Source: a virus
Strand: one strand, 5' to 3'
DNA length: 20,611 nucleotides
IMG/VR virus record: IMGVR_UViG_3300045538_000228
Span: 1-20,611 of that record
Part shown: piece by piece, positions 4,776 to 20,611 of the stretch
Layout: each line of letters opens with the position of its first letter
Position numbering within the stretch: the first letter of the stretch is position 1
Position numbers and translations under genes: made by a program
The notes under the pieces: model-generated
Told to the model about the DNA's origin: nothing
The model's input: only the letters and a program-made list of their open reading frames with translations
Databases searched by the model: none

Positions 4776-4926
4776 TCCTTGTTATTACTGCGGCAGGAAG
4801 CTCGATGACGTAGCAAAGAATGGTTGCGGATCAGAAGAGTTTCCGAAGAGTACTGTAGACAAATGGTGCGCTGTTGTTACTGCTGCGAGGTTGTCCCGTG
4901 ATGTCCAAGTCGCAGATCAAAAGTGA
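4753..4926 (+). CDS. 57-residue Cys protein resembling a truncated HNH-type zinc finger
   Basis: The ATG at 4753 follows GAGGATG and opens a 57-codon frame that overlaps both neighbours (23 bases upstream, 26 downstream). The protein begins MPQIILTDPCYYCGRKLDDV. Cys10 and Cys13, with Cys25 and Cys39, could bind zinc. DPCxYCG is the usual first zinc knuckle of small phage HNH endonucleases. The expected second half (His-Asn-His helix and second CxxC) is missing, so it is either a remnant or a zinc-binding protein of other function. It fills the otherwise empty 4776-4900 stretch. Confidence 0.45.
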   Translation: MPQIILTDPCYYCGRKLDDVAKNGCGSEEFPKSTVDKWCAVVTAARLSRDVQVADQK

Positions 4927-5242
4927 AAAGCGCAAGCGCATGATGACCGTGCGCCAGCTTCTTCATTTCGAGAACGTCAGGATACAGGGTGCGAACTACG
5001 CGGGCCGGGCTTGCTTCAAGCAGCCGCTCGACAACATCGATCCCCTGCTGATCCAGTTGAGTGGCATACTGGAGGAGAACGCAGGCTTCATCTCCGAGGT
5101 CTGCAAGCGAGCGGGAGTGGGCAGGTCTACTGTCCAGCGATGGATGCACGAAGGGAAAGATCCCAAGCTCAGCTACCTGCGCGCGATGCTGAATGCTATG
5201 GGGTATGACCTGAGAATCGAAAGGATGCGTGATGACGATTGA
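4901..5242 (+). CDS. Helix-turn-helix DNA-binding protein
   Basis: This 113-residue basic protein starts at the ATG at 4901 (GAGG at 4887-4890). A TTG at 4874 is a weaker alternative. The C-terminal half, NAGFISEVCKRAGVGRSTVQRWMHEGKDPKL.YLRAMLNAMGYDLRIERM, is a Cro/C1-type helix-turn-helix: helix 2 is about ISEVCKRAG, and the recognition helix is about GRSTVQRW. It is followed by the 'P.L..L...LNALGYDL.I' helix typical of phage regulators and antitoxins. It probably regulates a phage promoter. It is the only clear transcription-factor-type gene in the window and a candidate partner for the operator-like array at 20404-20431. Confidence 0.65.
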   Translation: MSKSQIKSEKRKRMMTVRQLLHFENVRIQGANYAGRACFKQPLDNIDPLLIQLSGILEENAGFISEVCKRAGVGRSTVQRWMHEGKDPKLSYLRAMLNAMGYDLRIERMRDDD

Positions 5243-10083: not shown

Positions 10084-13000
10084 ATGAGCTACGACCAGAT
10101 CATCCGCAATGCCCTGCGACTTGCGAAGGCTCCTCGCAGGTTTGCCTCTGGTGGAGAGGTTGTTCCCAAGAAAATGGGAACTTCTCCCATCCCAAAGGGT
10201 ATGGTTCGTCGTTTTCATGTTACTGGATCTCAAAATATTGATGATATCAAGAAGAATGGTCTCACCATGCAAAAGGCTCGCGGCATTGAGGGGCCAAAAG
10301 CAATCTATTCTTGGCCCGATGAAGATAGTGCAAGGTCATATGCCGGGCCTTACGGCTCAATAGTTGAGTTCTACGACCATCCCGAAAACTATGATAGCCA
10401 TCGATTTGCCCGACTTGGTGATGTTCCAAAGGATCAGATTCTGGCAATCCATGAGCCGTGGCACGAAAGATACCGATATGCACTTGAGGAAAATATTCCC
10501 TCAACGGTATTGAGGGATGCTGGCGGTCCAGATTACGAAAAAGCTGCTGATGCTCTTGATAAGAGCCGGGGATATGCTCTTGGCGGGGAGGCAGATTCCA
10601 AGGACATCTCGCCATCCATCTCAAATCCCGTCTCCGTCTTCCCCAAGCCACAGAGGATGTTTCCCTCTGATGCACCTGTCCCCGGTGGTCAGTATCTGGG
10701 AATGCCTGACAAGCAGGACATGACCGGCCACAAGTCTGCCGTGGCGTCGATTGGTGTCCATCCCGGCGGCAAGCCCTACTTCAATGCATCGAAGGACGCT
10801 GTTGATCAGACCGGGACCGCTGGAAAGGCGAAGACCAAGACGAACCTGTTCAAGCAGAAGGCTGGCTGGTCTTGGCAGAACGCGCCAGAGGGGCATGAGG
10901 ACACGAACACGATTGTTTCTGTCGAGCATCTTGGCAAGCACTACTACGCTCTGAACGCTCATTTCCCGAAGGGAGTGGACTTCGCGAGGTACGAGAAGGC
11001 CAAGAGCGAACCTCGACTGCGTCCGACAACGACCGGGGATGTATTCCTTGGTCCGCAGGCAGGAACGATCAGCGTCAGGGGCAAGGAACATCCCGTCTAT
11101 CATCATGTTGTAGTGAAGGCTGATGGTGGAGCGGTCGGCTATGCCTCTGGCGGGGACGTAGATCAGCCTCGTCAGCTAGATGACCGTGGCTTCTACAGCG
11201 CAGCAGCCGAAGCTGCCCGTTCCCTCCCCCAAGCCAAGGGCAGTCCATCCCAGATGATGGCTACCATGAAGGGGGTGAAGCCCTCCGAGCTTGAGTGGTC
11301 CGGTGCCGGGAAGGCTTTTGCCAACCAGAAGACCGTGACCAGAGACGATCTGGCGCAGCATTTTGAGCAGAATGTCCCTAAGATCACCGAAACTGTTCTT
11401 GGTGGAAATGCTAATGCCAATCCTAGAACAAAATATCAGGATTACACACTAGGAAATACTTATGGAAACGAAATTCCAAGGGATCGAAACTATAGAGAAA
11501 TTTTGCTTGGTCTTGATAATCCAAAAATACTTCATCAATCAAGTCATTGGGACGAACCCAATGTAATTGCCCACCTGCGAATGCAAGATCGCGGCCCTAA
11601 CAATGACGTTCTTCACCTTGAAGAGCTTCAATCCGATTGGGCGCAAAAGGGAAGAGATGAAGGATTTTTTACCAAAGAGGATCTTATCAAAAGAGAAGCA
11701 GCAAAAAAGTCTTTTGAAGAATATTCAAAAGAATTAGCAGATAAATACGGTCTAAATCCAAGGTTAAATCTTGCGATGTACAGGAGCATTGCGGGAATGC
11801 ACGACTCAGAAGTTGAAAAATATGAACAACTTCAGAGGGAAGCAATTATTACTGGTGCAATTATAAAAAATAAAAAAATCAACCCCGCTCCATACGTCAC
11901 TAACACCGATCATTGGACCGAGCTTGCCCTTAAGCGCGCTCTGATCGAAGCCGCGCGCGGCGGCTACAACAAGCTCGTCTGGACTCCGGGTGAGGAGCAG
12001 GCGAAGAGGTACAGTCTTGGGAATTATGCGGATAAAATTAAATATAGTCCAGAGGGAGAAACACTTAGAGGATATAAAAATGGTGAAATGATTTTTGCCA
12101 AAGCAGGTGTAAAACAAGATAGCTTGCATGAGCATATTGGAATGGAGCTTGCTGATGAAATTATGCAGCACCGCAATTCAGTAGAAGAAAATGGAAGAGT
12201 TTTTCATGAATTGACCGGTCAACAGTTGTTCATGGGCGGCAAGGGCATGACTGAGTATTACGGCAAGATTTTGCCCAATGCTCTTCGTCGCGTTCTCAAG
12301 CCCCATACAGACAAGATTCAGCCGACCTCCCATGTCGTGAAGAACAATGACGGAGAAGACGTTACTCTCCCCGGCATCGAGATCACTCCCGAGATGCGTG
12401 AGTCGATCCTGAAGAAGGGCTTCTCGCACTACGCTCATGGTGGTGAGGTGCGCCAACACTTTGAGGTTGGTGGTGGTGCAGATGGTGGAGACTCTGGCGG
12501 CGGCGATTCGTCCAATGGAGATGGGGGCGGCTTCAGTTCCAACTCTGACATGGCGGATTTTGGCAGCCAGACGGAACGTGAAGATTCCAGTCCAGCCGCT
12601 CCATCCTACTCCCCGACAGATCAAGATCCCTCGATGCTTGGCGGGGCTACAGGGATGGTATTCTCTCCTCTCGGCTCTGGGTCACTTGGAGTTGGGACTG
12701 GGCAAGTGAGCGGCAGCGTTTTTGGCAATGCCGAGCAGAACTTGAACACGGGGCCGGGGGTTGTTGGCTTCATCGGTGGATCGCCTCTTGGCGCTCTTGC
12801 GTATGCGATGGAGCAAATCAACAACACCTACTATGATGGCAAGGCTCGCGCCGATGTAGACCAGAACGTCGGTGGTCCATCGTCTGGTCAGAACCCAACT
12901 GCTGCGGATGTAGTGTATCCGCAGTCTGCAAATCCCTCTGGAGGTTTCAGACTCTCCAGCGATGATGACGAGACGCAGGCTGGCTTGGTGAAGCCTGTTG

Positions 13001-18481: not shown

Positions 18482-18874
18482 ATGCCGTACATGCGTATGA
18501 CTCACGATGTCGATCCGACCAAGAAGATCCTCGATGAGATCGGTGATCTGTCTACGGTCGAGATCTTCAACAACCAGATCCTTGTTGGCGTCTATATCCG
18601 CCCGCAGAAGACCAAGAGTGGTCTCTATCTGTCGGACAAGACTACTGACGAGGACCGTTTTCAGTCGAAGGTCGGGCTGCTGCTGAAGGTTGGCTCTCGC
18701 GCTTTCGAGGAGAACGAAGAGGGATGGTTCAAGGGAGACAAGTTCAGCCTGCATGACTGGCTGGTCTTCCGTCCGTCCGATGGCTGGAGCATCACCGTGA
18801 ATGGTGTTCTGTGCCGAATGCTTGCGGATACGCAGGTGAAGGGGCGCGTGAAGTTCCCCGATGAAGTTTGGTGA
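18482..18874 (+). CDS. GroES/Cpn10-like co-chaperonin
   Basis: This 130-residue protein has the Cpn10 order. First strands: VEIFNNQILVGVYIRPQKTKSGLYLSDKTTDEDRFQSKVGLLLKVG. Then a variable loop (SRAFEENEEGWFKGD) and DWLVFRPSDGWSITVNGVLCRMLAD. The segment KTKSGLYLSDKTTDED takes the place of the GroES mobile loop, which contacts GroEL. Phage co-chaperonins of this kind, like T4 gp31, adapt the host chaperonin for folding the major capsid protein. Its position just upstream of a scaffold-like gene fits that job. AGGGGGT lies before the start. It is longer than bacterial GroES (~97 residues) mainly because of the acidic loop and the C-terminal extension. Confidence 0.72.
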   Translation: MPYMRMTHDVDPTKKILDEIGDLSTVEIFNNQILVGVYIRPQKTKSGLYLSDKTTDEDRFQSKVGLLLKVGSRAFEENEEGWFKGDKFSLHDWLVFRPSDGWSITVNGVLCRMLADTQVKGRVKFPDEVW

Positions 18875-19786: not shown

Positions 19787-20404
19787 ATGGAAAACGTCAT
19801 CAATCCCGCTGCTCCGACCGTTTCCGAGGCTCCCCGCAGGCGCGGCAGGCCCCCGAGGACTGTCCAGAAGGTCGAGGAGACCGTCGAGGAGACTGTTGCA
19901 GCCGTGCCGAGGGCTGAGATGCGCTCCGAGGTGCGTGAGGAAGACCCGCGCGCCCGTGCTGCTCGTCGTGCAGCAGAGATCCGGGGTCACCTTGGCGACA
20001 TGGATCAGGGTACGGACGAGTTCTACATCGACCCAACCCTCATTCCCGAGGGCTGGACGTATGAGTGGAAGCGGTTTCAGGTGCTGGGGCAGGAAGACGC
20101 CACGCATCAGGTTCATCTGGCGCGGATGGGCTGGGAAGTCGTTCCTGCTCGTCGCCATCCCGGCATGATGCCCTCGTCGTGGACCAAGGGAACCATCGAG
20201 CGCAAGGGCATGGTGCTGATGGAGCGTCCCACGGAGGTTGTCGAGGAAGCTCGTCGCATCCAACAGAAGGTCGCCAAGGATCAGGTGCGCGCCAAGGAGG
20301 CCCAGATCGCAGGTACTCCTGATGGCACCATGACTCGCGACCATGCCCAGACGCGACCGAAGATCAACAAGAGCTATGAGCCGATCCCGATCCCGAAGGA
20401 GTAA
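19787..20404 (+). CDS. Conserved phage protein with AT-hook-like N-terminus
   Basis: This 205-residue protein starts at the ATG at 19787 after GAGGAGAT. Residues 17-25, RRRGRPPRT, form an AT-hook-like GRP motif, followed by an acidic/Ala coiled stretch. The core (about 75-160) reads TDEFYIDPTLIPEGWTYEWKRFQVLGQED, then GWEVVPARRHPGMMP and ERKGMVLMERPTEVVEEAR. It resembles an uncharacterised family found near head genes of many phages. The C-terminus is INKSYEPIPIP. DNA or nucleoprotein contact through the hook is plausible; the role in head assembly is not known. The gene ends exactly where the operator-like array begins (20404). Confidence 0.65.
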   Translation: MENVINPAAPTVSEAPRRRGRPPRTVQKVEETVEETVAAVPRAEMRSEVREEDPRARAARRAAEIRGHLGDMDQGTDEFYIDPTLIPEGWTYEWKRFQVLGQEDATHQVHLARMGWEVVPARRHPGMMPSSWTKGTIERKGMVLMERPTEVVEEARRIQQKVAKDQVRAKEAQIAGTPDGTMTRDHAQTRPKINKSYEPIPIPKE

Positions 20405-20442
20405 AGTAGCTACTTGACAAGTAGAAAGTAGTGTGGTAGTGT
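20404..20442 (+). promoter_or_regulatory. Strong promoter with AAGTAG operator-like array
   Basis: TTGACA (20414-20419), a 17-base spacer and TAGTGT (20437-20442) preceded by TGG (extended -10 style) form a sigma70-type promoter with a consensus -35. Overlapping it are AAGTAG at 20404-20409, 20419-20424 and 20426-20431, plus the inverse CTACTT at 20410-20415. These make a perfect 12-base palindrome (20404-20415) and a second inverted repeat, CTACTT-GAC-AAGTAG (20410-20424). This looks like a repressor or activator site set. Confidence 0.65.
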
Positions 20443-20445
20443 AGG

Positions 20446-20474
20446 AGCACAAGATCGATGTTCGGTCTTGTGCT
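20446..20474 (+). promoter_or_regulatory. 5'-leader hairpin just after the promoter
   Basis: AGCACAAGATCG (20446-20457) pairs with CGGTCTTGTGCT (20463-20474) across a five-base loop (one G-T wobble), starting about four bases after the expected -10 end, so it would sit at the very 5' end of the transcript. Only TTCTTGCTTT follows, which is weak for a terminator. A 5' stabilising leader is my preferred reading; a terminator for the upstream gene is the alternative. Confidence 0.55.
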
Positions 20475-20494
20475 TCTTGCTTTAGGAGATTGAT

Positions 20495-20611
20495 ATGTAC
20501 CTCGCAGTCATCCTCATCGGAGCCGGTTCTTCTTGGGCGCGCATGGCGTCCAAGGACGATGCCATCAAGTCGGTCTGCAAGATCCTCAAGTCTGACTGGA
20601 GCAGCCTCTAC
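20495..20611 (+). CDS. Start of a small phage protein, truncated by right edge
   Basis: The ATG at 20495 follows AGGAGAT and opens 39 codons to the window edge. The protein begins MYLAVILIGAGSSWARMASK and continues DDAIKSVCKILKSDWSSLY. The pattern of a short strand, an 'xWxR..xKDDAIxxV' helix and 'SDWSSLY' recurs in small phage proteins of unknown role. It is the first gene controlled by the promoter at 20414-20442. It is not recognisable as the major capsid protein. Confidence 0.62.
   Translation, partial: MYLAVILIGAGSSWARMASKDDAIKSVCKILKSDWSSLY

Follow-up and report, generated by a model that had tools for sequence, protein, structure and literature searches.

At the right-hand end of the virus record IMGVR_UViG_3300045538_000228 (20,611 bases, analysed in full and called the window here), a promoter-like sequence carries four copies of AAGTAG. 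It was asked which gene this promoter serves and what might regulate it. Among the genes of the window are those for small and large terminase subunits, a portal and a GroES-like protein, along with others of the head region. The GroES-like protein (18482–18874) is a phage-encoded co-chaperonin (phrog_3188) that is retained in the head region of relatives. A sequence-only reading had taken the array for an operator on a consensus promoter upstream of the probable capsid or late block, with the helix-turn-helix (HTH) protein at 4901–5242 as candidate binder. The features of the locus are as follows.

19787–20404 (+): upstream backbone gene, 205 aa, the conserved left border of the slot
20404–20415: perfect 12-bp palindrome, AAGTAG followed directly by CTACTT (units 1 and 2)
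20410–20424: CTACTTG-A-CAAGTAG, perfect 7+1+7 inverted repeat over the −35 (units 2 and 3), unique in the window; probable operator
20414–20419 (+): −35 hexamer TTGACA, perfect, invariant in 10 aligned modules
20426–20431 (+): fourth AAGTAG unit, within the spacer
20432–20442 (+): extended −10, TGTGG TAGTGT; TGTGN precedes the −10 in all modules except L130 and L115
20443–20477 (+): hairpin over the predicted start, arms 20443–20458 and 20462–20477
20484–20488 (+): ribosome binding site AGGAG, by sequence
20495–20611 (+): start of cassette gene A, which runs off the window; 92 aa in the full relatives L001, L002 and L003

The array promoter and the gene behind it

All four AAGTAG units were found as previously described, three on the + strand (20404–20409, 20419–20424 and 20426–20431) and one on the − strand (20410–20415). 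The whole window holds a single further copy, at 10776. Nowhere else in the window are four copies of a 6-mer packed into 28 bp, and none of 200 dinucleotide-shuffled windows contained such a cluster. The sequence-only reading had named lack of conservation of the repeat in relatives as grounds for refutation, and on this test the specific repeat fails. The array is confined to four near-identical contigs, namely the window and three IMG/VR contigs which share an exact 21-mer (AAGTAGCTACTTGACAAGTAG) and extend past the window end; what is conserved beyond them is the architecture.

The elements and spacing of the promoter are those given by the sequence-only reading, with TAGTGT (20437–20442) placed 17 bp after TTGACA, but the word consensus fits the −10 poorly: it matches at only 3 of 6 positions and is accompanied by an extended TG at 20434–20435. 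Because of these 3/6 matches, the promoter was missed by a consensus scanner. Across the 10 aligned modules the −35 is invariant and the spacing is 16–17 bp, which agrees with a sigma-70 promoter (TTGACA, 16–18 bp, −10 hexamer).

The window ends 117 bases into gene A. In the three contigs that extend further, the 92-aa gene A is followed by a strong terminator and a leader, after which come a 206-aa ORF and the gene of a major-capsid-like protein (phrog_371). Since gene A is followed by its own strong terminator before the capsid leader, the array promoter is predicted to serve a single 92-aa orphan gene and not the capsid operon. Its identity as a capsid or late promoter was rejected on account of this terminator and of near-identical phages in which the capsid operon is retained although the unit is missing.

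An AlphaFold2 model of the gene A product is an alpha/beta structure of high confidence (pLDDT 94.3, pTM 0.85). Foldseek gave no match below E 0.001 among solved and viral structures, and the VIA Z was at most 3.2, so the fold could not be named. The protein matched no HTH family. No homologues were found in GTDB genomes, and homologues are present in unrelated phages. One of these, in Citromicrobium phage vB_CbaS-RXM (L086:3968–5753), lies five genes before an AcrVA2-annotated gene and four genes before a ROS/MucR regulator. The AcrVA2 neighbourhood is taken as a lead, not as functional evidence.

An optional slot holding unrelated small genes

The 205-aa gene was found by tblastn in 78 relatives or related loci; it weakly matches phrog_36003, of unknown function. 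Seven loci (L006, L007, L008, L010, L011, L013 and L069) carry a 205-aa gene near-identical to that of the window and no cassette, and in all of them its stop codon is directly followed by the terminator and the capsid leader. The closest comparison is between L009, which has a cassette, and L006, which has none: the two share 99.5% identity in the upstream gene and 99.7% in the part of the downstream sequence that was compared, and the L009 cassette takes the place of about 20 bp in L006. The cassette is thus absent from close relatives with intact flanks, as a moron would be, and a promoter and a terminator are predicted from its sequence, as would suit an autonomous transcription unit. Slot length is bimodal (about 100–250 bp without a cassette, 476–1721 bp with an insert).

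Five gene families, A to E, occupy the slot behind the same module.

Family A: 92–109 aa; window, L016/L019, L020/L021
Family B: 74–75 aa; L027, L034
Family C: 80 aa; L029–L031
Family D: 73 aa; L025
Family E: 72 aa; L115, L117, L130

No similarity was found among the five families, and none gave a Pfam, PHROG or PADLOC match above chance. All follow the same series of elements: TTGACA, a 16–17 bp spacer, a −10 (in most cases with TGTGN before it), a hairpin starting 0–7 nt downstream of the −10, then a ribosome site. In each cassette a single ORF is followed by either a terminator or the capsid leader. With a covariance model built from promoter and leader, 35 records, mostly fragments, were searched. 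The model scored 48.8–84.1 bits, always in the slot, with at most one full match per record and none elsewhere; as ten of the matched sequences trained the model, their scores are by construction, and the search is informative in finding no other copies. Six loci with the slot were searched against Rfam without a match at E 1 or below. When the leader motif TGYTGTTTGAYATGGAG was searched in IMG/VR, the same phage group was recovered, adding gene E, along with unrelated chance matches. The leader before the gene-A homologue of L093 resembles the module weakly in the RNA model (18.2 bits, E 0.13), a kinship that is suggestive only.

Some further slots hold other genes. Longer ORFs reading as HNH-like or GIY-YIG-like homing endonucleases were seen in L022, L041 and L049, on the opposite strand in two cases. 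A sixth small ORF family (MELKDRM/MELAERM...GQVTWA...) occurs in L087:3725–3952 (MW202675) and in L168, a planctomycete-labelled MAG contig; it has a hairpin before the ribosome site and a different promoter layout. Capsid relatives also turned up in MAGs labelled with many different phyla (L162–L172), most likely phage contigs mis-binned by composition.

Just past the window end, the 5′ leader of the capsid operon (L006:5955–6045, L002:1838–1924, alignment A7) contains, in most relatives, two hairpins with an identical 8-nt loop, CCCGGYGY, the loops lying about 37–40 nt apart. The stems show strong covariation, with 58 double-change cells where shuffles give 15.9 (0/500), and an Rfam search of six loci returned nothing at E 1 or below. 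This leader resembles a protein-binding RNA element that has been duplicated, and it might act in capsid autoregulation or antitermination. It is possibly more novel than the promoter cassette itself.

Core-promoter palindromes and the hairpin at the predicted start

Seven of eight promoters contain an inverted repeat over the −35 or the spacer, each with a different sequence.

Window: CTACTTG-1-CAAGTAG
L016: ACAAGC-6-GCTTGT
L027: CAACTTGACA-3-TGTCAGGTTG, one mismatch
L029: GGCTTG-1-CAAGCC
L025: TGTCAAC-6-GTTGACA
L130: TGTCAAG-6-CTTGACA
L093 (unrelated phage with a gene-A homologue): GTGTCAC-1-GTGACAC

No inverted repeat was found in the L020 promoter. In Citromicrobium phage RXM, too, the gene-A homologue is preceded by a promoter with an inverted repeat, TAGGACAA-A-TTGTCCTA, which lies between TTGACA and TATAAC. 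The summed inverted-repeat score was 50, against 29.5 ± 2.8 in shuffles that keep the promoter elements (0/400), in a test on about eight promoters devised after the pattern had been seen. That this is a regulated promoter, as the sequence-only reading held, is plausible, given a promoter conserved in relatives and a core-promoter inverted repeat in 7/8 independent cassettes; repressor binding we infer.

The regulator put forward earlier did not fit. The HTH protein at 4901–5242 matches repressor families, but its presence does not track the cassette: it is 99% identical in one cassette record and one cassette-less record, 62% identical in another cassette-less record, and went undetected in the rest of the cassette records, several of them too short for its absence to be judged. 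A second copy of the probable operator palindrome was found neither near the HTH gene nor elsewhere in the window, nor among seven related records. With neither co-occurrence nor a second operator, the protein was rejected as cognate regulator. A PF01381 search yielded no other candidate among the cassette records it covered, and no dedicated regulator for the cassette was found. Differing operators without a resident repressor are awkward for a model of repression.

The hairpin exists at the predicted start as proposed, with arms of 16 nt (88% complementary) instead of 12. The 101-nt region containing it folds at −33 kcal/mol (z = −3.9). Among nine aligned leaders, 94.6% of cells are paired against 79.4% in shuffles, and double changes, which are compensatory, affect 7 of 10 pairs; the 11 double-change cells compare with 3.2 in shuffles. 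Neither value was reached in 500 shuffles, and the covariation signal collapsed once the partners were slid. The one departure, L025, was badly placed by the aligner and has its own hairpin, CGGGGC-ACCCC-GCCCCG. These data indicate that the start-site hairpin is under selection for pairing.

Since the hairpin is conserved by compensatory changes, the predicted transcripts would begin base-paired. With starts set 6–9 nt after the −10, they begin within the 5′ arm; for a start at the seventh nucleotide, eight of nine modules leave no free 5′ nucleotide and the ninth leaves one. In the window, the cassette's own transcript is predicted to start near 20449, inside the 5′ arm. Structure at the 5′ end is known to stabilize mRNA, as both RNase E and RppH require a 5′ end that is single-stranded (PMC3997798).

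Interpretation and known relatives of the module

The reading that we favour, with a probability of roughly 0.6, is that the slot is moron-like, a site of gene exchange equipped with a standard expression module, in which differing regulators would repress transcription and the mRNA would be protected at its 5′ end. Between the conserved 205-aa gene and the capsid operon, the slot receives an accessory cassette in which a host-type sigma-70 promoter (TTGACA, extended −10), a core-promoter inverted repeat, a hairpin over the predicted start and a ribosome site precede a single small ORF with its terminator; phages of the group carry differing, unrelated small ORFs behind the same promoter-hairpin module, or none. 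The inverted repeat is probably an operator for a dimeric repressor whose specificity differs per cassette. If the promoter fires, the transcript would start inside the 5′ arm, and its paired 5′ end would shield it from RppH and RNase E, giving high expression of the small protein. The cassette genes may serve counter-defence or host takeover. That the slot is a dedicated exchange socket beside the capsid operon, in which a core-promoter operator and 5′ hairpin module swaps counter-defence or takeover genes, each with its own operator specificity, is a tentative and rather doubtful proposal.

The repeats could instead be by-products of a strong −35 in a constitutive promoter, TTGACAA itself being a short palindrome. 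This would account for AAGTAG being limited to one clade, for repeats that vary between cassettes, for the L020 promoter without a repeat and for the lack of a regulator that tracks the cassette. It nevertheless seems unlikely, as the arms of 6–10 bp far exceed those in shuffles that keep TTGACA and the AAGTAG cluster had no match in 200 shuffles. Control of the capsid or late block by the array, bound by the HTH protein at 4901–5242, fares far worse: the array does lie upstream of the capsid genes and the protein does resemble repressors, but a terminator stands between gene A and the capsid operon, cassette-less relatives keep that operon and the HTH gene does not follow the cassette, so that we consider this very improbable.

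The hairpin might also act mainly to terminate or insulate transcription. RNA reading through from the 205-aa gene would form the full 16-bp stem and terminate, while RNA begun at the promoter would lack the outer stem and escape, much as in the PeSL cassettes of T4-type phages. The hairpin lies directly 3′ of the upstream gene, the full stem is available only in readthrough RNA, and in the window the stem is followed by the U-rich TTCTTGCTTT. What makes this role less likely is that the U-rich tail has not been kept across the alignment, being missing from L016, L020 and L030; the module hairpin thus shows no conserved intrinsic terminator, and the window hairpin was not called by a terminator scanner. 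We regard it as improbable, more so than a constitutive promoter.

Several known systems share parts of the favoured arrangement of slot and module. Among the closest known kinds are the morons of tailed phages (PMC6316719). These are small extra genes with their own promoter and terminator, such as are predicted for the cassette, and like it they lie between conserved head genes in only some close relatives. We know of no morons in which unrelated genes at one locus share one promoter-operator-hairpin module, as they do here. The PeSL cassettes of T4-type phages (Arbiol 2010 and Comeau 2014, cited in PMC4503421) reportedly join a strong sigma-70-like promoter to a stem-loop and are said to be tied to the shuffling of small non-essential genes; their stem-loops are reportedly described as terminators, with many copies in hyperplastic regions. 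The slot module likewise joins a strong sigma-70-like promoter to a stem-loop; however, it gives at most one full match per record, at one slot (35 records, mostly fragments), its tail is not terminator-like and its stem covers the predicted start. In acr-aca operons, inverted repeats within the core promoter are the rule; the small phage ORFs there follow promoters that are predicted to be constitutive (PMC9410906). The same placement was found in 7/8 promoters here, but the cassettes contain no aca (HTH) gene, gene A belongs to no HTH family and a start-site hairpin is added. As in the 5′ stem-loop stabilizers of the ompA/papA type, the hairpin would form the very 5′ end of the transcript if the predicted start is used, before the ribosome site; here, in contrast, the putative stabilizer is attached to an exchangeable phage cassette. 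The novelty lies in what is brought together: at one slot, several unrelated genes stand behind one conserved promoter-hairpin module, with core-promoter palindromes that differ.

If this reading is right, the module would be a search handle: unrelated genes could be collected through a common regulatory leader instead of by sequence, and small phage genes found behind it would become candidates for accessory functions, for example anti-defence. The module also allows a test of why a phage puts a start-site hairpin on swappable genes, whether for mRNA protection, for insulation from readthrough or for both.
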